Part shown: piece by piece, positions 9,676-47,582 of the stretch | Numbering within the stretch: the first letter of the stretch is position 1 | Layout of the letters: each line of letters opens with the position of its first letter | Source: Moorella glycerini | GTDB lineage: Bacteria > Bacillota > DSM-521 > Neomoorellales > Neomoorellaceae | Direction of reading: 5' to 3' | DNA length: 64,000 nt | NCBI RefSeq assembly: GCF_009735625.1 | Contig: NZ_CP046244.1 | Span: forward strand, 1,240,001 to 1,304,000 | Translations under genes and position numbers: made by a program | The notes under the pieces: generated by a model | Told to the model about the DNA's origin: nothing | Database searches by the model: none | What the model saw: the letters and a program-made list of their open reading frames with translations, nothing else

Positions 9676-9775
9676 TGGCGGGAGTGGGTGGGAATCGAAC
9701 CCACCGCGCCCGGGGCTCACCCACGCGCCGGCTGGATTTGAAGTCCAGGCAGGCCACCAGGCCCGATCCACTCCC
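9676..9775 (-). tRNA. selC: tRNA-Sec (anticodon TCA)
   Basis: On the minus strand the 5' end is GGGAGTGG at 9775 and the 3' end is CCACTCCC plus discriminator G and an encoded CCA (9678-9676). The acceptor stem is therefore 8 bp, diagnostic of selenocysteine tRNA. The anticodon stem-loop CTGGACTTCAAATCCAG has TCA, reading UGA. The variable arm is long and GC-rich (about 9700-9735), and the T arm is GTGGGTTCGATTCCCAC. About 100 nt. It works with SelA (16689) and SelB (14779), both encoded a few kb away on the same strand with the liv operon in between. Confidence 0.96.
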
Positions 9776-22702: not shown

Positions 22703-22888
22703 TGCCGGCGACCTCCTCCGAAATCACTAAGGCTTACAGTTCAGCCCATATTTCACTTTAGTGGAAATAATTAGTGTGCGTTATTGCTGTATAAACTTTA
22801 CTCTGGCGGTATAGCTATACTAAAATGTGTCTTTTTACCATTGCATGCTTGCACCTAGCATTTATCTTTCCTTTGGCTTTTTTTAAAA

Positions 22889-24127
22889 CTAGGCAACAGA
22901 AGGCTTTTCTTCTAGAGTTACTGTGTAACCTTGGGCTTCTATTTGCTTTACTAACCGCCTTATTCGGCGTTCTCGTTCTTCTTTGGTATAGTAGTTTGGT
23001 CCTGGATCCTGGTAATGGGCTTTATCTTTTAGGAGATGGTAGATAATTTTTATCAGACTATGGGCGATGGCTAGCAGGGCTTTTTTCTTGCCTAGTCGTG
23101 GCGCTAATCGACGATATTTCGCGGAGAGATAGCTGTCTTTTGTTCGTATTGCGGCCCAGGAACATTGGACTAATATTGCTCTTAAGTGTTGATTTCCTTT
23201 ACGGGTTTTCCCACTCTTTCGTTTACCGGCACTTTCGTTGTTACCGGGACAGACCCCTGCCCATGAGGCTAAATGGTCAGCATCAGGAAAGGGGGTCATG
23301 TCGACGCCTATTTCGGCAATTATATCCTGGGCTGCTTCTTTTTTTATGCCGTTTACTTCAGCTAGTCTCCCCGCTTCTTCGAAAAAAGGCTCCATCCTTT
23401 TTTCGATTTCGGCATTTAGTTCTTCGATTTGTTGCTCTAAAAACTCCAGGTGCTCTAGTTGTTGTTTCAACAATAGCCGGGTATGTTCTTCTATTTTCCC
23501 CTCCAGGGCTTTTTCTAGTTCTGGTATCTTCTTGCGTAATTTCCCCCTGGCCATTTGCGCTAGTTCTTTTGGATCTTCGTTCCCGTTAAGCATCGCTTTT
23601 AGTATCTCTCGCCCTGATACGCCCATGATATCTGTGGCTACTGAACTTAATTTGATATTGCTGTTTTCTAGCTGCTTTTGGACCCTTTGCACCTCGCGGC
23701 TGTGTTCTGCTACCAAAGCCGCCCTATACCTGGTTAACTCCCTTAATTCCCTTATTTCTTTCGGCGGGATAAAGCTTCCTGCTAGCAGGCCATGCCTTAA
23801 AAGTTCGGCTAGCCACACCGCGTCTTTGCAGTCGGTTTTCTTCCCCTTTAAGGCTTTAAAGTGTTCGGGGTTGATCAATATTAATTCTGGTATTTGGCCT
23901 TCTAAAATGTTGTATATCGGTTTCCAATATACTCCGGTGCTTTCCATGGCTACGGCAGTAACTCCGTTTTCTAAAAGCCATCCCCGTAACCCTTCTAAGT
24001 CTTCGGTCATGGTGCCAAAGGTTCTTATTTCTTGTTTTAGTTGTTTTTCTCCTGGCGTGATCAGACACGCCACTACCTTTTTCTTGTGGACATCTAGCCC
24101 ACAGCAGCGTTCATACACTACTTCCAT
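22889..24127 (-). CDS. IS110 family transposase
   Basis: 412 residues. The N-terminal DEDD RuvC-like domain starts CCGLDVHKKKVVACLI (first Asp), with TAVAMESTGVYWKP (Glu) and KTDCKDAVWLAELL (later Asp residues). A central coiled coil of about 60 residues follows, then the C-terminal Tnp domain with the serine nucleophile region (ADHLASWAGVCPGNNESAGK). IS110 recombinases use a bridge RNA from the element's own leader to pair donor and target. The gene appears intact. Base composition is more AT-rich than its neighbours, consistent with recent arrival. Confidence 0.95.
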   Translation of the reverse strand: MEVVYERCCGLDVHKKKVVACLITPGEKQLKQEIRTFGTMTEDLEGLRGWLLENGVTAVAMESTGVYWKPIYNILEGQIPELILINPEHFKALKGKKTDCKDAVWLAELLRHGLLAGSFIPPKEIRELRELTRYRAALVAEHSREVQRVQKQLENSNIKLSSVATDIMGVSGREILKAMLNGNEDPKELAQMARGKLRKKIPELEKALEGKIEEHTRLLLKQQLEHLEFLEQQIEELNAEIEKRMEPFFEEAGRLAEVNGIKKEAAQDIIAEIGVDMTPFPDADHLASWAGVCPGNNESAGKRKSGKTRKGNQHLRAILVQCSWAAIRTKDSYLSAKYRRLAPRLGKKKALLAIAHSLIKIIYHLLKDKAHYQDPGPNYYTKEERERRIRRLVKQIEAQGYTVTLEEKPSVA

Positions 24128-24179
24128 TTCGTGGTTTCTTGCTTTCCCCTCTTTCTTTTTTATTTTTTATTTAACTACT

Positions 24180-24360
24180 GCCAAGAGACACCTCCATGGT
24201 CTAAGAATCTCCTCCACGTGCTCAGCCTTCCAAGGCGGGTACTTTACCTTGTTGAGGCCTGCTTTACAGTTCGTGGTTCCTAAAGGTGTCTGGATCAGAC
24301 TCCTCCTCGGGCTCCTTGTCCGGCACCAGAGCGAAATCGATCCTTTTCATGGCAGTGTTT
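24180..24360 (-). ncRNA. candidate IS110 bridge RNA
   Basis: Directly 5' of the transposase on minus. A -10-like TATAAG lies at 24369-24364. Downstream are two nested stem-loops: TCTGG/CCAGA (24330-24289) enclosing a GA-rich loop, and AGACACC/GGTGTCT (24291-24186) enclosing a smaller GCCTT-GG-AAGGC hairpin. Two loops in this order match the target-binding then donor-binding layout described for IS110-group bridge RNAs. Position and form are seen; function is inferred. Confidence 0.5.
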
Positions 24361-24400
24361 TAACTTATACTATCACCTATTTCATGTGTCGTGGAGGGGG

Positions 24401-24428
24401 CGCCAGCCCCCATGGGGGGCTCCTCCGG
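24401..24428. repeat. 28-bp direct repeat, copy 1 (with 24753-24780)
   Basis: This tract matches 24753-24780 at 25 of 28 positions in the same orientation; both contain CAGCCCCCATG and GGGGCTCCTCC. The pair brackets the structured RNA copy at 24460-24713. Copy 1 lies at the IS110 5' edge; copy 2 encodes the last residues of the M23 peptidase. Confidence 0.75.
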
Positions 24429-24459
24429 AAATAGGGTTCTGCCAGAATTGGTGTCTTCT

Positions 24460-24713
24460 GGTGGGGATATGTCCCTCCGCCGCTCAGGAGTTACGCGCCG
24501 ACAGGACGACGGCTCGGTTCGGACCGCTGCTCGTCGCCTGCGGATTGCCCATGAACAGGCTCCTGGTTCCGCCAACTTTACTCCTTCTATGAGATTACGT
24601 CGTTCTCTCACAAAGGTACGCTCAGGCGTCCTCGGCTCCGGCAGCGGTTGCCTCACCTCGCCTGTCCTGTTACCGGCGCTCCACTATTCGCGGCTCCGGG
24701 ACATACCCCCACC
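24460..24713 (-). ncRNA. dispersed 254-nt structured repeat RNA, copy A
   Basis: On the minus strand the unit starts GGTGGGGGTATGTCCC (24713-24698) and ends with its complement GGGACATATCCCCACC (24475-24460): a 16-bp closing helix with one G-U pair. Inside are CAGGCG/CGCCTG, TGAGA/TCTCA and CGGTCCGAACCG hairpins. Copy B at 32569 has the same length and long identical blocks, but a different closing helix that still pairs. No protein coding is supported. It lies between the M23 gene and the IS110 element. Possible identity: a stand-alone OMEGA (HEARO-type) RNA; see findings. Confidence 0.65.
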
Positions 24714-24752
24714 CTAACGCCCAGGCAAATCTTAACCGTTTGCTGGCGGGGT

Positions 24753-24780
24753 CGTCAGCCCCCATGAGGGGCTCCTCCCG
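24753..24780. repeat. 28-bp direct repeat, copy 2, inside the M23 gene end
   Basis: Same tract as 24401-24428 with three differences. Read on minus it encodes the last seven residues of the M23 peptidase (GGAPHGG) and its TGA stop, so the peptidase tail may be derived from inserted DNA. Confidence 0.7.
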
Positions 24781-25669
24781 AAAGATATTTTAAGGGATCC
24801 TGTAACTGGTCATATAGTTTCACTTGAAAGTGCAAGTGGGGACCGGTACTGCGACCGCTGCTGCCCACCCTGGCGATAGGCTGGCCGCGCACTACCTGTT
24901 CTCCCGTTTTAACTAAGAGTTCAGAATTATGGCCATACATACTTGTTAGCCCATAGCCGTGATCAATGATAATGGCACGTCCATAAACCGGCATCCAGCC
25001 GGCAAAAACCACCCGGCCGTTGCCAGCAGCCTGGACCTCCGCGCCATAGGCAGCGGCAATATCAATGCCTTCATGAAATTCTTCCCGCCGGCCAAAGGGG
25101 GAATCCCGGTAGCCAAAAGGGGAAGAAACCGGCCCCCTTACCGGCCAGTGGGAGGGCAGGGCTGCCAGGTAAGCCAGGTGCTGTTCCATTTCCCGGGCCA
25201 GTTCTTTGAGTTTGACCTCCTGGCGGGGAGTTTCCCGGGCTACGCCGTTCAGGATAGAACGTACCTGGTTTAAAGTTTGTTCCTGTTCCCGTGGTCTTAA
25301 ACGGCCACCCCGGGAAGCTTCACTGGGGCGCCCACCGCCTCCCTGGCCCAGGCCCAGCAAGGACCTTACCCGGGCATCCAGTTCGTCGATGCCCTGGATT
25401 TTTTCCTGTAAAGCCCTGGCCTGTTCCTCCAGTTGCATAATCTGGGCGGCCTGGCTGGCATTGATCTGGTCAATAACTCTAAGCTCGGCAACCCTTTTGT
25501 GCAGGTGATATACTGCTCCTGCGGCTGTAATTAAGGCTATAATAAGCAGTATGGCCATTACGACCGCGACCTGGAAAAACCATGCCGGGAGTAAATAGCG
25601 ATAAACTCCCCGGCGCCCTTCCGGGACAAGCATTAGCGTAAAGTAACGATCACGCCGGCTACCCTTCAA
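24755..25669 (-). CDS. M23 family peptidase (LytM-type endopeptidase), membrane-anchored
   Basis: 304 residues. One TM segment near residues 25-50, a coiled coil at about 55-105, a low-complexity linker, then the LytM domain (about 180-295) with FHEGIDIAA (zinc His/Asp), GRAIIIDHG and TGPHLHFQVK (catalytic HLH). It cleaves peptidoglycan cross-links. TTG start at 25669. DUF4446 is just upstream and bactofilin formerly just downstream. The C-terminal GGAPHGG comes from the 28-bp repeat (24753-24780), suggesting that the native end was replaced by the insertion. Confidence 0.92.
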   Translation of the reverse strand: MKGSRRDRYFTLMLVPEGRRGVYRYLLPAWFFQVAVVMAILLIIALITAAGAVYHLHKRVAELRVIDQINASQAAQIMQLEEQARALQEKIQGIDELDARVRSLLGLGQGGGGRPSEASRGGRLRPREQEQTLNQVRSILNGVARETPRQEVKLKELAREMEQHLAYLAALPSHWPVRGPVSSPFGYRDSPFGRREEFHEGIDIAAAYGAEVQAAGNGRVVFAGWMPVYGRAIIIDHGYGLTSMYGHNSELLVKTGEQVVRGQPIARVGSSGRSTGPHLHFQVKLYDQLQDPLKYLSGGAPHGG

Positions 25670-25681
25670 ACCCGGATCCCC

Positions 25682-26200
25682 CTAACTGGCTGCCTTTTCC
25701 GGCGTCAGCAAGCCGAGGGCCATGGCCAGGGCCTTTTCTTCCTCTTCGCTCAGGCGGTAAGTCGAACGCCCACCGTGAACGGGTTTAATAAAGACGCGAG
25801 TCTCGTCCCGGGCATAAAGGCTGGTGAGGATAAAACCGTGCCCTTCCCTGTTAAGGAGGGCCAGGGCAAAACTCAAATCGCTGCCGGTATCGGGAAAGGC
25901 ATTAAAGCGGATCAAGCCCATGCGGCTGAAACTTTTTTCCAGGCCCACCTGGAGATCGGCTGCCTTTTCGTGCACCTGTTCAAGGGCTTTCTTTATCTCC
26001 CCGAGGTCATGAAAGCGCGCCAGGACGGCAGTCAGGTCGTGGCCTTCGCCAGTTTCAGCTAAACGCTTGATGCGTCCTTCCAGGCGCCTTACCTCAGCAT
26101 GGTTATACCAGAGAAAAAGGATGATAAGCAATTGCAAGCCGGCCAGCCCCAGGAGGATAGGGATATAATAGGGTGCCAGTAAAGAAGTAAGTGCCGCCAA
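25682..26200 (-). CDS. DUF4446 family membrane-anchored protein
   Basis: 172 residues. A TM helix at about 12-32, a short coiled coil (VRRLEGRIKRLAETGEG), then the conserved DUF4446 core LIRFNAFPDTGSDLSFALAL, continuing LLNREGHGFILTSLYARDE. Function unknown; the family usually sits near parAB or bactofilin in Firmicutes, as here. It precedes the M23 gene by 12 bases. Confidence 0.87.
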   Translation of the reverse strand: MAALTSLLAPYYIPILLGLAGLQLLIILFLWYNHAEVRRLEGRIKRLAETGEGHDLTAVLARFHDLGEIKKALEQVHEKAADLQVGLEKSFSRMGLIRFNAFPDTGSDLSFALALLNREGHGFILTSLYARDETRVFIKPVHGGRSTYRLSEEEEKALAMALGLLTPEKAAS

Positions 26201-26373
26201 GGCAAAATCCTCCCTACTAAATTACAGCAAAGGATTTATTTCCACATGAAATGCCATTTTCCTGTTATTTAAACTTACCTTTCGCAAAAATAAACTGGTT
26301 AACTACCGCTAATATCATGCTATCCCGAGAGAACCTGTATCTGCAAGTATGCAAATTCTATCATCCCGAAAAA

Positions 26374-26395
26374 AATAAATCCAGCAGGATTTATT
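26374..26395. promoter_or_regulatory. perfect 9-bp dyad upstream of larE
   Basis: AATAAATCC and GGATTTATT flank AGCA. It is about 55 bases before the larE start in the divergent DUF4446-larE gap. It could be an operator or a hairpin; no T-run follows. Nothing else is recognised in 26201-26451. Confidence 0.4.
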
Positions 26396-26451
26396 AAGGT
26401 AGAAGAAGAAAGTCTATATGCCTATAAATAAATTAAAGCGTGGTGATATTA

Positions 26452-27294
26452 ATGATAACTGCTGATCTAGCTGCCAAACTGGAACACCTGCAAAATAATT
26501 TAGCAGGCATGGAAGCCATCCTGGTGGCCTATTCCGGTGGTGTTGACAGCAGCCTTTTACTCAAGGTAGCCAGTATGACGCCAGCCAGGGTCCTGGCGGT
26601 AACGGCCGCTTCACCCACTTATCCCCAGGTGGAAATAGAAGCCGCTACCCGGCTGGCGCGGGAACTTGGTATCTCGCATATGGTAATAAATACCAAAGAA
26701 ATGGCAAACCCTGCCTTTACTGCTAACCCGCCGGAACGCTGCTACCATTGCAAAAAGGAACTTTTTGCTACCTTGCAGGAACTGGCCCGGGAACACGGAC
26801 TGAAAGTAATAGTTGATGGCGCCAATGCCGATGACAGCAGCGATTTCCGCCCTGGTAGCCGGGCGGCCAGAGAGTTCGGCGTCCGCAGCCCCCTGCAGGA
26901 AGCAGGCCTGACCAAAGAGGAGATCCGCCGGCTGGCAAGATACTTAAGCCTGCCCAACTGGGATAAGCCTTCCATGGCCTGCCTTTCCTCCCGCATCCCC
27001 TACGGCCAGGCCATTACACCGGAAAAACTGGAGCAAGTGGCTGCTGCCGAAGCTTTCTTACGCCAGCTGGGTCTAAGGGAAATCCGGGTACGTCATCACG
27101 GCGCCGTTGCCCGCCTGGAGGTAAACCCATCCGCCTTTGCCCTTCTCATTGATACAAGTGTCCGGGAAAAGCTGGTTAACTGTCTCCACGAACTCGGGTT
27201 TACCTATATCACCCTAGATTTAGAAGGCTTCCGCAGCGGCAGCATGAATGCCGTGCTTAGCCCGGTGGAACGGGTAGTAAGGCACAATGCTTAA
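26452..27294 (+). CDS. larE: ATP-dependent sulfur transferase for nickel-pincer cofactor synthesis
   Basis: LarE adenylates and thiolates the P2CMN precursor of the nickel-pincer nucleotide used by lactate racemase-type enzymes. PP-loop motif AYSGGVDSSLL near the N-terminus. Three cysteines are seen: CYHC (101 and 104 in the longest frame) and MACLSSR (181). The last corresponds to the sacrificial cysteine of L. plantarum LarE. The extra CxxC pair matches the variant reported to hold an iron-sulfur cluster, so sulfur may be supplied catalytically. ATG 26452 follows GGTGAT; GTG 26440 is an alternative. larC follows 15 bases later. Confidence 0.92.
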   Translation: MITADLAAKLEHLQNNLAGMEAILVAYSGGVDSSLLLKVASMTPARVLAVTAASPTYPQVEIEAATRLARELGISHMVINTKEMANPAFTANPPERCYHCKKELFATLQELAREHGLKVIVDGANADDSSDFRPGSRAAREFGVRSPLQEAGLTKEEIRRLARYLSLPNWDKPSMACLSSRIPYGQAITPEKLEQVAAAEAFLRQLGLREIRVRHHGAVARLEVNPSAFALLIDTSVREKLVNCLHELGFTYITLDLEGFRSGSMNAVLSPVERVVRHNA

Positions 27295-27309
27295 AGCAGG
27301 GGGAGAAAA

Positions 27310-28500
27310 ATGAAAGTCGCCTACTTTGACTGCTTTTCCGGTATCAGCGGTGATATGTGCCTGGGGGCCCTGCTGGCCAACGGCCTCTCCCGGGATGAAC
27401 TGGTGGCGGGCTTAAAAGGCCTGGCCCTGGAGGGATGGGAATTAAAGGTCAGTAAAGTCAAGCAGCAGGGTATTGCGGCCATAGATGTAGCTGTGCAGGT
27501 GTCCGGTCACCAGCCCCACCGCCACCTGGAAGATATCCTGGAACTGATCAATAACAGCCCGTTGCCTGCGCCGGTACGGGAAAAAGCAACGGCTGTCTTC
27601 CGGCACCTAGCCCGGGCTGAGGGCCAGGTGCACGGCATCAGTCCCGAAAAGGTCCACTTCCATGAAGTCGGGGCCGTCGATGCCATTATCGATATTGTGG
27701 GCACCGTCCTGGGCCTGAACCTCCTGGGTATTGAGCGGGTTATAGCATCACCCCTGCCCCTGGGCTGCGGCTGGGTCGAATGCCATCACGGCAAGCTACC
27801 GGTACCGGCACCGGCGACCCTTTACCTGCTCCAGGGTTACCCTGTTTACGGCACTGAAGATAAAGCCGAGCTGGTAACCCCCACCGGCGCGGCCCTCATC
27901 ACCACCCTGGCCGAAGCTTTCGGTCCTTTCCCGGCCATGGATTTGACCAGCGTTGGCTTTGGCGCCGGGAAAACCCTTCTTGCGCATCCCAACCTCCTGC
28001 GCCTGGCCCTGGGAGAAATTACCGAAAAACAGCTAGAAGGAGAGGAGAGCAGCCTGGTCATCGAGACGACCATTGATGACATGAACCCCGAGTTTTTCCC
28101 CGTCCTCATGGAGCAGGTCCTGGCTGCCGGGGCCGTGGATGCCTACTTTACGCCGGTACAGATGAAGAAAGGTCGCCCCGGCGTTCTCTTTACAGCCCTC
28201 TGCCCGGAAAACCGCCTGGCCTCAGTAGCGGCGGCCATCTTCCGCCATTCCAGCACCCTGGGCCTGCGCTTCCGCCGCGACCAGCGCCTGGTCTGCCAGC
28301 GACGGAGTACCGAGGTGCTGACTCCCTACGGACCGGTTACCGTCAAATGGGGGCTTTACCATGATCCTGAGGGCCGGGCAATCACTAACGTAGCCCCGGA
28401 ATATGAATCCTGCCGCCGGGCCGCCCTGGCCGCCGGCGTGCCTGTAAAGGAAGTCTACGCCGCCGCCCTGGCTGCCGCCCGGGCCGTAAAGGTATGGTGA
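27310..28500 (+). CDS. larC: nickel insertion protein for nickel-pincer cofactor
   Basis: 396 residues, one continuous frame, unlike L. plantarum where larC is read through a programmed frameshift. [17 protein letters not shown] at the start and [16 protein letters not shown] are conserved; [20 protein letters not shown] marks the start of the C-terminal half. LarC inserts nickel into the pincer nucleotide in a CTP-dependent step. Start ATG 27310 after GGGGGAG. LarB and a LarA-type target are not in this window. Confidence 0.93.
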
Positions 28501-28502
28501 CC

Positions 28503-28552
28503 TAAGCTAACCCCTTGCCTGCCAGCGACAGGTCAAAGGGTTAGCTTTTTTA
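28503..28552 (+). terminator. intrinsic terminator of larEC, shared with DUF554 gene
   Basis: AAGCTAACCC and GGGTTAGCTT form a long stem around 28504-28547, followed by a T-run on plus. The stem is symmetrical enough to serve the convergent DUF554 gene as well. Confidence 0.85.
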
Positions 28553-29236
28553 GTGCCACCATAAGGACAGCAGGGCAGCAAAGACAAGGGCTGGTAAAAG
28601 GTTACCGGCGGGGATCTCCTTTATCTTCAGTACTCCAAGGGCAATGGCGATAATGAGCAATCCGCCGCTGGCAGTAATTTCGGTTACTGCTGGCGTCAGG
28701 TAGTTCTGCAGCCAGGCGGCCATGAGGGTCAAACTGCCCTGGTAAACAAGCACCGGCAGGGCCGCCAGGGCCACTCCCCAGCCCAGGGTGGTACTCATGG
28801 TAACGGCCAGGATGCCGTCCAGCAGAGCCTTGGCATAAAGGGTATTGTAATTGCCACGTAAACCAGCCTCCAGGGAACCCATAATGGCCATAGCACCGAC
28901 ACAGTAGAGAAGACTCGCGCCGACAAAGGCCCGGGTAAGCTCTCCGCTACCGCCCCGGGTAAGAAGTAGCTCCAGGCGCCGCCCCAGGCCGGCCAAACGC
29001 CCTTCAATATCCAGGAGTTCCCCGCTAATACCCCCGGCTACCAGGCTGACAATCACCAGCACGATATTTTTGCCCTGGGCGGCCATGGCCAGCCCCACCA
29101 GTAATATACCCAGGCCAGTGGCCTGGGTAACTGTTTTCAGCAGGCGCCGGGGCAGGCGCTGGCCAATTAAGGACCCTAAAAGGGAACCGGCCAGGATGGC
29201 CAGGACATTAACCCATGTCCCCCACAAGTTCTTCAC
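28550..29236 (-). CDS. DUF554 family membrane protein
   Basis: 228 residues with about seven hydrophobic segments. TWVNVLAILAGSLLGSLIG at the start, FVGASLLYCVGAMAIMGSLE in the middle and LIIAIALGVLKIKEIPAGN near the end are typical DUF554 (YdfK/YqgA-like) segments. Role unknown. GTG start at 29236. Convergent with larC. Confidence 0.88.
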   Translation of the reverse strand: MKNLWGTWVNVLAILAGSLLGSLIGQRLPRRLLKTVTQATGLGILLVGLAMAAQGKNIVLVIVSLVAGGISGELLDIEGRLAGLGRRLELLLTRGGSGELTRAFVGASLLYCVGAMAIMGSLEAGLRGNYNTLYAKALLDGILAVTMSTTLGWGVALAALPVLVYQGSLTLMAAWLQNYLTPAVTEITASGGLLIIAIALGVLKIKEIPAGNLLPALVFAALLSLWWH

Positions 29237-29269
29237 CCCGATTTCAGGCGCCGGCCGGCGCCTTTTTCT

Positions 29270-29824
29270 TTAAAACTCCCTGGGTTTGCAAATTATCTCT
29301 CTGATTTTGGTGGCGAAAAAGTCCTGGGAATGGGCCGGGCGTAAAACCAGGGCCGTATCGACACCTTCGTTGCTGCCGCCCAGGGCAATGACATCCACCC
29401 CCGCCGGTATGAGACCAGCGTCCAGGGCCATGCCGGCAACCTCGACGGCCACCTTGGTGCCCTGGCCAAAGAGACGCAGGGTATTGGCGATAATTTCGGC
29501 CGGGTAAATGCCCTGGAAACTGAAGCGCAGGGCGCGGTCCAGGCCGGCCAGCAGGTGGGTGGTGGTCAGGACTTTAATCCCCCCATCCTCCAGGCGCCGG
29601 CGCGTGGCCGCATCCATTTCTATTTCCCCCGGATTTTTAAAACCGGCCTGGTGGGTAACGCAAACGATATTTAAGTCGTTATTCCCCAGGCACAGCGAGG
29701 CGCTGTAGCCGGTTGCCGAAGCAACAACCACATCCTTTAGCCCCAGCTGCCTGGCCCGTTCCAGGGCCAATTTCACCGTCCCTTCTGTATTTATCTTTCC
29801 TTTGGCTTGCCAGTATGTTGTCAT
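29270..29824 (-). CDS. stand-alone pyruvate kinase C-terminal-like domain protein
   Basis: 184 residues starting TTYWQAKGKINTEGTVKLAL, with VVVASATGYSASLCL and VIALGGSNEGVDTALVLRPA. This resembles the pyruvate kinase alpha/beta allosteric domain found as a separate protein in many anaerobes. It has no catalytic barrel, so a regulatory or ligand-binding role is likely. ATG start. The IS607-type element ends just upstream, so its promoter region may be altered; two TATCAAGA direct repeats lie 29850-29890 on minus. Confidence 0.8.
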   Translation of the reverse strand: MTTYWQAKGKINTEGTVKLALERARQLGLKDVVVASATGYSASLCLGNNDLNIVCVTHQAGFKNPGEIEMDAATRRRLEDGGIKVLTTTHLLAGLDRALRFSFQGIYPAEIIANTLRLFGQGTKVAVEVAGMALDAGLIPAGVDVIALGGSNEGVDTALVLRPAHSQDFFATKIREIICKPREF

Positions 29825-29889
29825 GTATAGATTCCTGGCTCAAAAAACCTAACAAGTCTTGATACATTGTACCAATTCTTGATAGGCGG

Positions 29890-30165
29890 CCTCCCCATGA
29901 CCAGGCTTTTCGCTCCTTTCGGATTTGATTTGCCTGCCCCTGGGAACAGGCTTCGCGACAGGGAGACCTCGGCCCCGGGGGTCTCACCCGGACGGGAGAA
30001 CGGCACTTGAACCGGGCGTAAGGCGTGGCCTTAAGGAGAACCATAAAAGTTCCCGCCTTACGTTGACCGTTAAGTGGTCCAGCGCTTTAGTCTTTCAAGA
30101 GCCGGACGCCTCCGCGCGATCTGTTGGATGCGGCCTACCGGTTTGTCCGATACCGGTTAACGGGG
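29890..30165 (-). ncRNA. candidate omega RNA / right end of the IS607 element
   Basis: Downstream of tnpB on minus. GTAAGGCG...CGCCTTAC encloses GGAAC...GTTC, then GAGACC...GGTCTC and GCCTG...CAGGC hairpins follow. TnpB guide RNAs are encoded at this position, overlapping the tnpB 3' end and running into the flank that serves as guide. No known sequence signature could be verified here. Confidence 0.4.
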
Positions 30166-31834
30166 TCACCTACTTGATAAAGCAAGCCGTTTCAAGTCGT
30201 GCCAGGCAGAGTAAAAAGATTCCTGTTTATAGCGGTCTAAACCGTTATGAACGGAAACCTTTTCGTCCAGCCGCTTGAAAAGCCGCTTTACCTTTCGGGT
30301 CATCCCTTTTCCTTCCCCAGGTAAGGTATCGACCTTTTGGTTCGACTTTTCTTTAATGGCTTGGATTTTTTGTTTTAACTCTTTAGTGATGCGTTCTTTA
30401 AAACCTATAGCCCGACGGGCAATTGTCATCGCGGCAGCATGGTGGATTGTTATCCCGTACCGCTCCATGTATTTCCAATAGCCGATAGTGGAAGTGTGAG
30501 CTGGCCGGACCGGCTTAAGGGGAAATTGGCTGCCATGCGGTTGAATTTTTTATTGGTGTCCAGCCGGTCTTTGCCGAAGTCCAGATCTTCTAAAGCGATG
30601 GGCTTGCCTAATGTTTTGGTAATATCCACCACTACCTGAGCCAGAACGCCGATGAGGTAAGCGCGTCTGAAACTGCGGCTGTAAGCCAATTCGGGCATCT
30701 TGATGTAAAAAAACCGTTCGGGTGCATTGTAACCTGAAATTCCCCGTCGAATTTATGCAGTGCCTTCGGATACGGTACGATAAATCCTTCCGGCCAGGGC
30801 TCGGGCTGGCCAAAATAGTTGACGTTGGCTAAAGCCACCCCGTCCGGGTTGGTGTCTAAGCCCACATAACCCAGGTTGGGGTCGGTCACCAATTCAGGCG
30901 CCGTCATGGTGAAGGCGATATGAACCCTGTACCGGCCGTCCCGGCCTTTGATCAGCTCTACGGTATAAGGCACGCCTGTTAAGAGCAATTCCCATACTTT
31001 CAACCGGTGTTTCTCCGGCAGCCAGAGCTTCCCTGTCACCCGCGGAGCCCTGGTCATTATCGGCCTCCCTTTGCTGTCTATGCCTTTTTGTTCGGATAAA
31101 TGGGAAATAGTGATGTTAAGGCGGAATTCCCCGCCTTGATAAACTGCTCTTATGTTGGGATTGCCGTTTTTAGTGTCGTCACCGCGGGCGTATAACCGGT
31201 TCTGCCGGACGTCCCGCCATTCTTCCCGGCTGGCCTTGCCCTGGCAGACCTGCCGCCATAAAGAACGTCCCCCGAAAACTACCTTGGGGATAGTGACGTT
31301 AGCTTCATGCTTCTGGAGTTCGGCCAGTTTAGCGGCAAGCTTTTTGACCCGAGTCTTGCGGCCGTGGAATGTCCGTTTAGCTTGCTCTATTTTTGCGGGG
31401 TCATTGGCCTTAATCGCTTTGTCTAGATCCTTTTCAGCCCAGCGGAGTTTCTTTTTAGCCCGGCTCAGTTTGGTTTCTGTTTCCTCGATTTCTAACGACA
31501 GGAGTTCCTTTTGTGATTCTATGACAGCCTTCGCTTTCATTATGGCGTCGTCACAGTAGCGGGAGTTTAAGCCGCATACCCCTTGGCCTTCTTGTTTAAG
31601 TTCTTCCCGGGAACGACCCTCCAGCAACCTGTTGAACGCCCAGCGCTCGCAGGAGCAAAAAAGACGCATCTCCGTGTCCAGCGGGTCTTCATCCCCCCGG
31701 CTCCATTTCTCGGACCGGAAAGCAGGGTAAGCTTCCGGAAACCACTCGCCGCAGACGGTATACTTGAGGCCGCCGTTAAGTTCACTCATTTTCTTTTTGT
31801 TTTTTCTCTTTTTGTTCTTTCGCTGCTCCTTCAT
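30166..31834 (-). pseudogene. tnpB: tnpB (RNA-guided nuclease family), two frameshifts
   Basis: Three consecutive frames make one TnpB. Frame 1 (31834 to about 30690) carries the N-terminal domain and RuvC-I (GYVGLDTNPDGVALANV). Frame 2 (about 30698-30450) carries RuvC-II (PIALEDLDFGK). Frame 3 (30468-30166) carries the RuvC-III region (ITIHHAAAMTIARRAIGF). The first break is at a run of seven T (minus strand, near 30705); one more T would restore NGFFYIKMPEL. The second is near 30485 (LSAIG to YWKYMERYG). In RuvC-III the usual Asp before HxAAA appears replaced. Probably inactive. Confidence 0.85.
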
Positions 31835-32462
31835 CTGGCTCCACTCCCGCGATTAGTTCCCGAAACCCCTGTCTCACTTTTTTGCCGCCCCTGGCCCCGT
31901 ACAGCCGGGCAGAAAATGACGTGACTATGGCTAACAAATCCTTAACCAGTTCGCTTTGGGCGTCTTCCGGTTCTTTTTCCGCTATGGCGACTATTTCTAC
32001 GCCGCAATATTTTAAATGACGCTCAATGTACGAATACCCAAAACGGGCCAGCCGGTCGGGGTACTCGATAATAAGCTTTTTGTATTCTCCCCCCTCGGCC
32101 AGTTTGATGGCATTGGTTAACCCCCGGCGTTTCTGGTTCAGGCCGCTGGCCACGTCCGCAAATTTCGCCCTGATGGTAAAACCGTGCTCTTTAGCGTATT
32201 GGCGCAACCGTTCCATCTGCCTCATCAGGTTGCCAGCATCAGCCTGCTTTTTAGTGGATACCCGGGCGTATAGCACGGCTGCCTCGCGTCCGTCAGTCAA
32301 TTGATCGGACTGCAAAAGCCTGTTGAGTTCATCCATAGAGTAACGGCGCTGGCCTCCAGGCAAACGGACGGGCTTAATTAACCCTCGCTTTTCCCAATTG
32401 CGCAGGCTGTTAGGATGGACTCCTAATTTCTTTGCTGCTTTGCTGATGGTTAATAGTTCCAT
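31782..32462 (-). CDS. IS607 family serine recombinase TnpA
   Basis: 226 residues. N-terminal MerR-like HTH (LLTISKAAKKLGVHPNSLRN, then WEKRGLIKPVRLPGGQRRYS), then a serine-recombinase domain with VLYARVSTKKQ (nucleophile Ser) and IIEYPDRLARFGYSYIE. It excises and inserts the element through serine-DNA intermediates. It overlaps tnpB by 53 bases, the normal IS607 arrangement. The lysine- and glutamate-rich tail may be disordered. Appears intact. Confidence 0.93.
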   Translation of the reverse strand: MELLTISKAAKKLGVHPNSLRNWEKRGLIKPVRLPGGQRRYSMDELNRLLQSDQLTDGREAAVLYARVSTKKQADAGNLMRQMERLRQYAKEHGFTIRAKFADVASGLNQKRRGLTNAIKLAEGGEYKKLIIEYPDRLARFGYSYIERHLKYCGVEIVAIAEKEPEDAQSELVKDLLAIVTSFSARLYGARGGKKVRQGFRELIAGVEPDEGAAKEQKEKKQKENE

Positions 32463-32568
32463 AATCTTATGGTAATCATTTTGTTATGTTTTGTCAATAT
32501 TTATTAACCTTTAGCAGCTGCTACAACCCTCCCAAAAAAGACTTCTTAATCTCGTTGACTATTGAAGT

Positions 32569-32822
32569 GGTGCTGCTGTGTCCCGGAGCCGCGAATAGTG
32601 GAGCGCCGGTAATAGAACAGGCGAGGTGAGGTTACCGCTGTCGCCGCCGAGGACGCCTGAGCGTGCCTTTGAGAGGAAACAAGCGTAATCTCATAGAAGG
32701 CTCATAGCTTGCGGAACCAGCAGCCTCTTCATTGGCAATCCACAGGCGGCGAGCAGCGGTCCGAACCGAGCCGTAGTTCTGTCGGCGCGTAACTTTTGAG
32801 CGGCGAGGGACACAGCATCACC
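32569..32822 (+). ncRNA. dispersed 254-nt structured repeat RNA, copy B
   Basis: It starts GGTGCTGCTGTGTCCC (32569-32584) and ends GGGACACAGCATCACC (32807-32822); these pair over 16 positions with one mismatch. The interior matches copy A (24460-24713) in long blocks, for example CGGTCCGAACCGAGCCGT and AGGCGAGGTGAGG. Helix partners change together between copies, so base pairing is conserved rather than sequence. It lies in the 540-base gap between the IS607 recombinase and parB; the rest of that gap (32823-33002) holds no supported gene. Confidence 0.65.
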
Positions 32823-33002
32823 AACTGATAACTACCAGAGCCCGAAGCCTGTATCCGCCACCACTTACCTGAGCCCGCATTTTCATGTTTCGCCGGAGGA
32901 GGCGTTAGCCCCCCTCCATGATTGGTCGAGGGCTGGCTATACTTTGAAGCGAACTTTAATTTACAGCCCTTCTCTAAGCCGGAAGGGTTAAGGAGGGATG
33001 GT

Positions 33003-44121: not shown

Positions 44122-45175
44122 TTTTCGCAGTTACCGCGAGTTAACCTGGAACTGCCAGCCGGGCCTGAACATTATCCAGGGTCCCAACGCGGCCGGCAAG
44201 ACCAATCTCCTGGAAGCTGTTGGCTATTTAAGCTTTGCCCGATCCTTGCGCCAGCAGCAAGACCAGCAAGTGGTAAGCTGGGGAGCAAACTCTTTCCAGG
44301 TAAAAGGCTTCTGCAATGCCGGCCAGGAAAACCTGGAAGTAGCTATTATTTACCATCAAAGTCATAAAGAGTTAACAATTAACGGCCAGCACCACCGCTT
44401 AGTTGATCTCCTGGGGATCTTGCCGGTTATCTATTTTGGACCCGATGACCTGCTCCTGCTTAAAGGTGCGCCTGTCTACCGGCGCCAGTTCCTGGACCGG
44501 GAGATAAGCATCCTGGACCGGCTCTATTGCCACAGCCTCCAGTCTTACCGTCGCCTCCTTTTACAGCGCAACCGTTTACTGCGGCAGATCAAGGCAGGCC
44601 GGGGAAAATTTCAGGAGCTTGAACCCTGGAATATCCAGTTAGTATCTACCGGCTTGACCATTATCCAGAGAAGACGGGCCTTTCTCCAGGCCCTGGAACC
44701 CCTGGCAGCGGCCATCTACCAGAGTATGGATGCCAGGGAACAGCTAACCCTTACCTACCGGCCCAGCGGCGGTGACGGAGAGGAATGGCTGGCAAAAATA
44801 ACTGCGGGAATGGAAAGGGAGATCCAGGCGGGCTTAAGTCTCTGGGGACCCCATCGTGACGATTTCTCCTTTTTTATCGGCGACCATGAAGCGCGTTGCT
44901 TTGCTTCCCAGGGCCAGCAAAGGTCAGCCGTGCTGGCCCTCAAAATTGCTGAAGCCAGGATCTTTATGCAGGTCCTGGGAAAGAGGCCTATTTTGCTCCT
45001 GGATGACGTTTTCTCCGAGCTGGATAGCAAACGCCAGCAAGCCTTGCTGGAACTCCTGGCTACCGCTGGCCAGACCTTTTTAACGACCACGGAATTGACC
45101 AGACTACCGGCCAGCCTCCTGGAGCAGGCCACCCTCTGGCAATTATCAGGGGAAAGACAGTTAGTGGCAGGGTAG
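44084..45175 (+). CDS. recF: DNA replication and repair protein RecF
   Basis: About 363 residues. LRQLQLTNFRSYRELTW at the N-terminus, Walker A GPNAAGKTNLLEA, ABC-type signature region (SQGQQRSAVLALKIAEA) and Walker B PILLLDDVFSELD. It loads RecA at gaps. GTG 44084 gives the normal N-terminus; the frame opens from 44066. The stop (45173-45175) abuts repeat RNA copy C. Confidence 0.94.
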   Translation: MTAISLRQLQLTNFRSYRELTWNCQPGLNIIQGPNAAGKTNLLEAVGYLSFARSLRQQQDQQVVSWGANSFQVKGFCNAGQENLEVAIIYHQSHKELTINGQHHRLVDLLGILPVIYFGPDDLLLLKGAPVYRRQFLDREISILDRLYCHSLQSYRRLLLQRNRLLRQIKAGRGKFQELEPWNIQLVSTGLTIIQRRRAFLQALEPLAAAIYQSMDAREQLTLTYRPSGGDGEEWLAKITAGMEREIQAGLSLWGPHRDDFSFFIGDHEARCFASQGQQRSAVLALKIAEARIFMQVLGKRPILLLDDVFSELDSKRQQALLELLATAGQTFLTTTELTRLPASLLEQATLWQLSGERQLVAG

Positions 45176-45177
45176 GG

Positions 45178-45264
45178 ATATGTCCCGGAGCCTATGAGGC
45201 GTGGAGCAAAGGTCAAAAGGCAGGCGAGGTGAGGTAACCGCTGCCGGAGCCGAGGACGCCTGAG
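45178..45264 (+). repeat. structured repeat RNA, truncated copy C
   Basis: ATATGTCCCGGAGCC at 45178 and AGGCGAGGTGAGGTAACCGC, then GAGGACGCCTGAG to 45264 match the 5' third of copies A and B; the remaining two thirds and the closing helix partner are absent. It begins three bases after the recF stop and ends 32 bases before remB, so it lies in the recF-remB-gyrB leader. Confidence 0.65.
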
Positions 45265-45295
45265 AGTAGCAGAACCTTATGCGGAGGTGGTTATT

Positions 45296-47582
<2,287 letters not shown>

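Follow-up and report, generated by a model that had tools for sequence, protein, structure and literature searches.

The hairpin repeat found in the window, the whole stretch of 64,000 nucleotides of Moorella glycerini DNA analysed here, proved to be real. This non-coding mobile element is found in dozens of copies in Moorella, and relatives of it are scattered through the phylum. We consider it probable, at roughly 65%, that the repeat is a dispersed, non-coding, non-autonomous mobile element which in Moorella often lies within IS110-type ends. A preliminary description of this DNA had called it a mobile or element-derived structured RNA. Mobility and structure are borne out by empty sites, transposon-type ends, dozens of copies and covariation, while the term "RNA" is uncertain, as G.U and A.C combinations occur in equal measure in the helices of distant homologues and G.U is only modestly commoner in those of Moorella.

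Copies in the window and their distribution

Copies A (24460–24713, minus strand) and B (32569–32822, plus strand) of the hairpin core, here termed core 1, are both 254 nt long, as had been described, and identical at 218 of 253 aligned positions (86%). Each is closed by a 16-bp helix of its own. The arms of A (GGTGGGGGTATGTCCC / GGGACATATCCCCACC) form 15 Watson–Crick pairs and one G.T pair, and those of B (GGTGCTGCTGTGTCCC / GGGACACAGCATCACC) form 15 Watson–Crick pairs with one C.T mismatch, so that the helix of B is imperfect; the earlier observation that the closing arms differ between the copies and yet pair with their own partners therefore holds. Both copies do lie beside insertion sequences, an IS110 element that abuts unit A (see below) and an IS607 element (29834–32532, minus strand; NF033518) that ends 18–36 bp from the start of B. 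Further copies of the same IS607 terminate at about the same base without a copy of B, and the adjacency thus looks incidental. The repeat copies examined encode no protein, again in agreement with the first account. The similarity of B to other B-type copies spans approximately 32550–32844, with outer flanks that are specific to B-type copies and common among them. By eye, the flanks of one such locus (L019) resemble the two ends of another core, core 2, and the resemblance is less clear in B; on the basis of these sequences, B-type copies may represent core 1 enclosed by remnants of core 2.

The shorter third copy reported between recF and remB was also recovered. Copy C (45169–45268, plus strand) holds the 5′ ~100 nt of core 1 with the remainder deleted, and is followed by a right-end remnant, GCAGAACCTTATGCGGAGG (45269–45287, plus strand), at the ribosome-binding position of remB (ATG at 45296). 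At this site M. stamsii has the same deletion, M. mulderi has a collapsed hairpin, and two other genomes of the genus (G008 and G011) have no copy. At other orthologous sites, a full copy in one genome is matched elsewhere by a collapsed stem with one arm preserved (L007 in G008) or by assorted internal deletions (L003, L008 and L009). Decay would proceed through deletion of the hairpin at short direct repeats (GGGA or TCCC), after which a short stem-loop remains; slippage at a long hairpin is expected to produce such collapsed stems and deletions, and copy C is a remnant of this kind. Two other interpretations were set aside. One was that the covariation arose when the core inserted into a hairpin that was already present; the collapsed sites GGGGATATGTCCCC and GGGGACATATCCC are more simply explained by deletion between GGGA or TCCC repeats. 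Loci L016 and L018, 13 kb apart, are not one split copy; they are two copies, each separately deleted.

In the genome of the window (3.56 Mb), core 1 has 30 matches, about 15 of them near full length, and the best partner (E = 1e-125) is far above chance. Genomes are cited by handle where needed, G004 to G013 belonging to the same genus (G005, Moorella mulderi DSM 14980; G010, Moorella stamsii DSM 26217). Core 1 is present in 10 of 11 genomes of the genus and in 0 of 7 other genomes of the same family. A covariance model, R1, built from 39 Moorella copies, gave matches in 27 of 398 genomes of the phylum, spanning 15 genera, with up to 32 matches in a single genome, some of them partial. The distant loci that were inspected carry no gene of their own and are found mostly in the gaps between ordinary genes; about half of the distant copies examined are antisense to both neighbouring genes.

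The flanks of the distant homologues vary. Units with a left end resembling that of Moorella (..CACCAAC..ATGAAAAT) and right ends such as TATTTTCAGGGCAG enclose the homologues of four genomes (G064, G089, G260 and G306). In G137, the same terminator-like hairpin stands on both sides of five copies (L366 and L398–L401), and in G352 some copies are surrounded by AAAAAGGGGAC..GTCCCCTTTTT. These different flanks in G137 and G352 indicate that the hairpin is not bound to one transposon type. The hairpin appears to be an older and wider module than the Moorella unit, occurring across the phylum and also with other flanks.

IS110-type ends at Shine–Dalgarno-like sites

Copy A forms part of a non-autonomous unit of ~351 nt (24421–24772, minus strand) composed of a left end, GCCCCTCATGGGGGCTGACGACCCC (24748–24772), the core, and a right end, AGAACCCTATTTCCGGAGGA (24421–24440); these end motifs are common to many copies. 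At the GGAGGAG right end of the unit stands an IS110 element (22716–24420, minus strand), whose transposase ORF (22889–24127) matches PF01548, PF02371 and NF033542 (IS110 family RNA-guided transposase). This IS110 has nine identical copies in the genome, every one at an AGGA/G target. In G005, G008, G009 and G010, unit A and the adjoining IS110 are both absent and position 22715 is joined to 24772; the empty site in G010 is CTTACGGGAGGAGAGGTCG, the ribosome-binding site before the bactofilin gene. Unit A starts with GCCCCTCATGGGGGCTGACGACCCC directly after GGAGGA and terminates with CCTATTTCCGGAGGA, and the IS110 starts with GCCCCCCATGGGGGCTGGCGCCCCC after AGGA and terminates with TGATTTCGGAGGA in all nine copies. 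The left end of the IS110, GCCCCCCATGGGGGCTGGCGCCCCC, can thus be compared with GCCCCTCATGGGGGCTGACGACCCC of unit A, and its right end, TTTCGGAGGA, is similar to that of the unit. More generally, A-type units have as left end a GC-rich hairpin followed by ..ATGAAAAT and as right end ..CCTATTTTCGGAGGA, and both ends, which are not recognisable in all copies, resemble those of the IS110 of the same genome. The left end of a second IS110 group in the genus is comparable and includes ..CATGAAAATAG. The units and the IS110 share the Shine–Dalgarno-like target GGAGGAG, and the unit sites are empty in relatives.

Right-end motifs lie 3–19 nt before a gene start in 45 of 71 cases, compared to 28% for any GGAGGA (p = 9e-10, with orthologues included in the count), and several of the remaining motifs are followed by another left end. 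Since the unit terminates in GGAGGA, the downstream gene keeps a ribosome-binding site. The same ends enclose core 2 instead of core 1 in G007 and G012, once inverted (L227), and core-less short units with these ends occur in distant species (G006, G012 and G013 among others). Two other intergenic sites, followed through the genus, are empty in some species and hold core 1, core 2 or core 3 in others. Core 2 has no match to model R1 or to any Rfam family, and core 3 matches R1 weakly (E = 0.008).

The unit may be moved in trans by an IS110-family (bridge-RNA–guided) recombinase. The ends are similar over a short length (~25 nt and a motif), an autonomous IS110 with precisely the ends of the unit was not found, and the IS110 of this genome is missing from most genomes carrying the unit. 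Furthermore, five Moorella copies (L005, L009, L010, L013 and L015) have no recognisable IS110-type ends; because of these copies and the differently flanked homologues in G137 and G352, IS110 cannot be the sole carrier. Compared to IS110 insertion sequences and their non-autonomous derivatives (MITEs), the unit has the end motifs and the target site of the IS110 of the window, but it has no recombinase, a large conserved hairpin takes the place of the bridge RNA and gene, and several cores are interchangeable. A search of the literature on Moorella repeats and IS110 MITEs found no account of this element.

Pairing of the hairpin arms

The core is an imperfect hairpin of ~220–250 nt with conserved internal loops and a closing helix that is free in sequence but paired. 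Covariation is overwhelming. Among the 39 Moorella copies, 11 of 15 closing pairs are changed on both sides, which upholds the earlier claim of covariation rather than simple repetition. Over the whole structure, 93.9% of the cells in these copies pair and 18 pairs are doubly changed; there are 124 doubly changed cells compared to 33 in shuffles, and none of 500 shuffles reaches 124. Double changes extend to all 15 closing pairs, and to 53 of 59 pairs overall, in the 38 distant homologues, where the pairing score is 0.62 against 0.17 when shuffled and at most 0.11 when slid, in an alignment that was fitted to the model and leans toward the structure. The closing helices, of 14–18 bp, are unrelated in sequence between genera and are still paired. 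Across the phylum, the internal loops keep their tandem G.A steps and GGTAAC.

The kinds of pair tolerated bear on whether RNA or DNA is folded. In the distant set, supported pairs include 38 cells of G.U and 37 of A.C, both commoner than other mismatches, and in Moorella G.U is modestly commoner (49 versus 28). In contrast, 15 tRNAs from the same sequences gave 13 G.U and no A.C. The difference from tRNA has p = 0.0005 for the distant set and p = 0.008 for Moorella by Fisher's test, applied here to non-independent cells and with a small control. An early G.U excess, 120 compared to 35 A.C, stemmed mostly from two columns whose pairing was doubtful; it shrank in Moorella once the consensus structure was improved, and the distant set shows no such excess. 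Similar counts of G.U and A.C would follow if the two kinds of single transition were tolerated equally, so that the covariation here is not by itself proof of RNA. The pairing looks Watson–Crick only. Instead of ordinary selection on RNA, these results suggest a hairpin of DNA, or the copying of one arm from the other, and they suggest that a folded DNA strand or inter-arm copying shapes the hairpin at least as much as an RNA function does. The asymmetric loops point to one strand as the folded strand.

Related families and alternative readings

The closest known family is the Rfam orphan TwoAYGGAY (RF01731, clan CL00106), which was considered a probable RNA, not cis-regulatory, in its original report (PMC2864571) and later proposed to bind CsrA (PMC4333381); tandem GA steps in a stem have been noted for it as well (PMC4333381). 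Its covariance model gave no match to A or B at E ≤ 10. Two distant homologues from one genus (L398 and L312), the only ones among the loci tested, match the model at full length above threshold (E = 1.5e-8 and 2.7e-5). The two-hairpin part alone can reach 46 bits and clear the threshold, as in L307, where a partial match lies outside the element, and the superfamily link, though likely, is therefore moderate. Two hairpins with AYGGAY-type loops are absent from the Moorella core, and similar AGGAY loops are seen in homologues of G137 and G168. Unlike TwoAYGGAY, the Moorella copies and most homologues lack both AYGGAY hairpins and do not match the model; the portions of the TwoAYGGAY reports used here make no mention of mobility, IS110-type ends or multi-copy dispersal, which mark the Moorella element. 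The Moorella element is probably an unrecognised outgroup in the same superfamily rather than a member of the family.

Two readings of the hairpin can coexist with the mobile-element reading. In one, the core is a functional structured RNA family, a TwoAYGGAY-like sRNA borne by mobile elements, with selection acting on the transcript. This is somewhat doubtful in our view. The very strong covariation, the internal loops conserved across the phylum and tetraloop-like swaps (CCGAGG/CTTAAG) are consistent with it, as are the better folding of the sense strand over the antisense strand in 34 of 38 homologues, the scores of L398 and L312 and the proposed CsrA binding of TwoAYGGAY. However, the G.U and A.C counts differ from those of tRNA, about half of the distant copies examined run antisense to both neighbours, the Moorella core is without the two AYGGAY hairpins, and a promoter-like site is found nowhere near A and, near B, once on the opposite strand. 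In the other reading, which we regard as possible at well below even odds, the repeat is a DNA palindrome without an RNA role; its arms would stay paired through template switching in replication (quasi-palindrome correction), or because the folded single strand serves in transposition. Doubly changed pairs with few single-step intermediates, the G.U and A.C parity, and frequent hairpin deletions at GGGA/TCCC repeats argue for it, and the G137 copies sit between terminator-like hairpins as if DNA hairpins were the target. Strand-specific conservation argues against it, and arm copying alone would erase the unpaired tandem G.A and GGTAAC loops that are conserved phylum-wide.

That the core could instead be the bridge RNA of a non-autonomous IS110 element, with its own target and donor loops, is improbable. 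The core does sit where a bridge RNA does, just inside the left end, and a short stretch, GGAAGGCTGAGC, seen by eye and not far from a chance match, is common to the IS110 left end and core 2. On the other hand, the conserved parts have, by eye, no clear guide-like match to the GGAGGAG junction, the same core is found with other targets and other ends, and one target is shared by three different cores. The suggestion in the preliminary description of a stand-alone OMEGA/HEARO RNA of the IscB group has next to nothing in its favour beyond general form, an orphan, dispersed, structured element near insertion sequences. HEARO (RF02033) gave no match for A and B at E ≤ 10 or for the distant homologues at E ≤ 0.1, no IscB (HNH nuclease) gene lies beside the window copies or the distant copies examined (whose neighbours were inspected by eye), and the ends differ from those of HEARO and are IS110-like. 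For A and B, group II intron and other Rfam families likewise gave no relevant match at E ≤ 10.

If the mobile-element reading is correct, an orphan "RNA" family would gain a genomic role as cargo of non-autonomous transposons, and an IS110-type system would be aimed at Shine–Dalgarno sequences, with units that bear one at their exit end. A broader proposal, which we advance as an unlikely one, is that the hairpin is a phylum-wide DNA module, of which Rfam shows only the small "RNA" family TwoAYGGAY, and that this module works as folded DNA in mobility, passing between transposon ends of unrelated kinds (IS110-type at Shine–Dalgarno sites in Moorella, terminator-flanked in G137), so that a class of covariation-based "structured RNA" calls would be mobile DNA. 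Strong covariation alone is no proof of RNA, and the count of G.U versus A.C is a simple added test.

REP/ERIC-type palindromes are intergenic, dispersed and imperfect, and are frequent targets of insertion sequences. The Moorella element is likewise a dispersed intergenic imperfect palindrome, but it is far longer and has conserved internal loops, phylum-wide homology and IS110-type ends.

IS110 and its insertion sites

The IS110 element adjoining copy A occupies 22716-24420, and eight further identical copies lie at other loci (L145-L151 and L094). All nine were inserted at an AGGA/G junction (AGGA|G), a target that is Shine-Dalgarno-like. Both GAGGAGGAG and TGGAGGAGAT are present in the left end of the element and its identical copies, and they are possible candidates for the guides of a bridge RNA.

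Other hairpin cores and distant homologues

A second hairpin core of about 250 nt (core 2), unlike that of copies A and B (core 1), is present in many copies in two Moorella genomes, G007 and G012 (L215-L231), where it is enclosed by the same IS110-type ends as core 1 and is inverted within them once (L227); comparison of one copy (L218) with Rfam gave no match. In other Moorella species these intergenic sites hold a third hairpin family (core 3), GGAGCGAGCGACTTGG...GGGAGCGAGCG (L318-L320 and L342-L346), which can point either way and matches the core 1 covariance model R1 weakly (E=0.008, L318). Homologues of core 1 in the distant genome G137 (L398-L401 and L366) are insertions flanked by two copies of a transcription-terminator-like hairpin, for example ACCCGTATCACTTTGATACGGGTTAA on each side at L366.

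Orientation and other features

By hand count in the own genome, 24 of 29 repeat copies are codirectional with replication (p=0.0005), assuming an origin near dnaA (about 41 kb in the window) and a terminus opposite; gene orientation may be the cause of this excess. The second protein of the IS607 element beside copy B (30632-31834, minus strand) has no Pfam match at E<=0.001, and its sole match, to the transposase N-terminal model TIGR01765, is below the cut-off; it is probably a diverged or broken TnpB. A selenocysteine tRNA gene (RF01852) lies at 9676-9775 on the minus strand.
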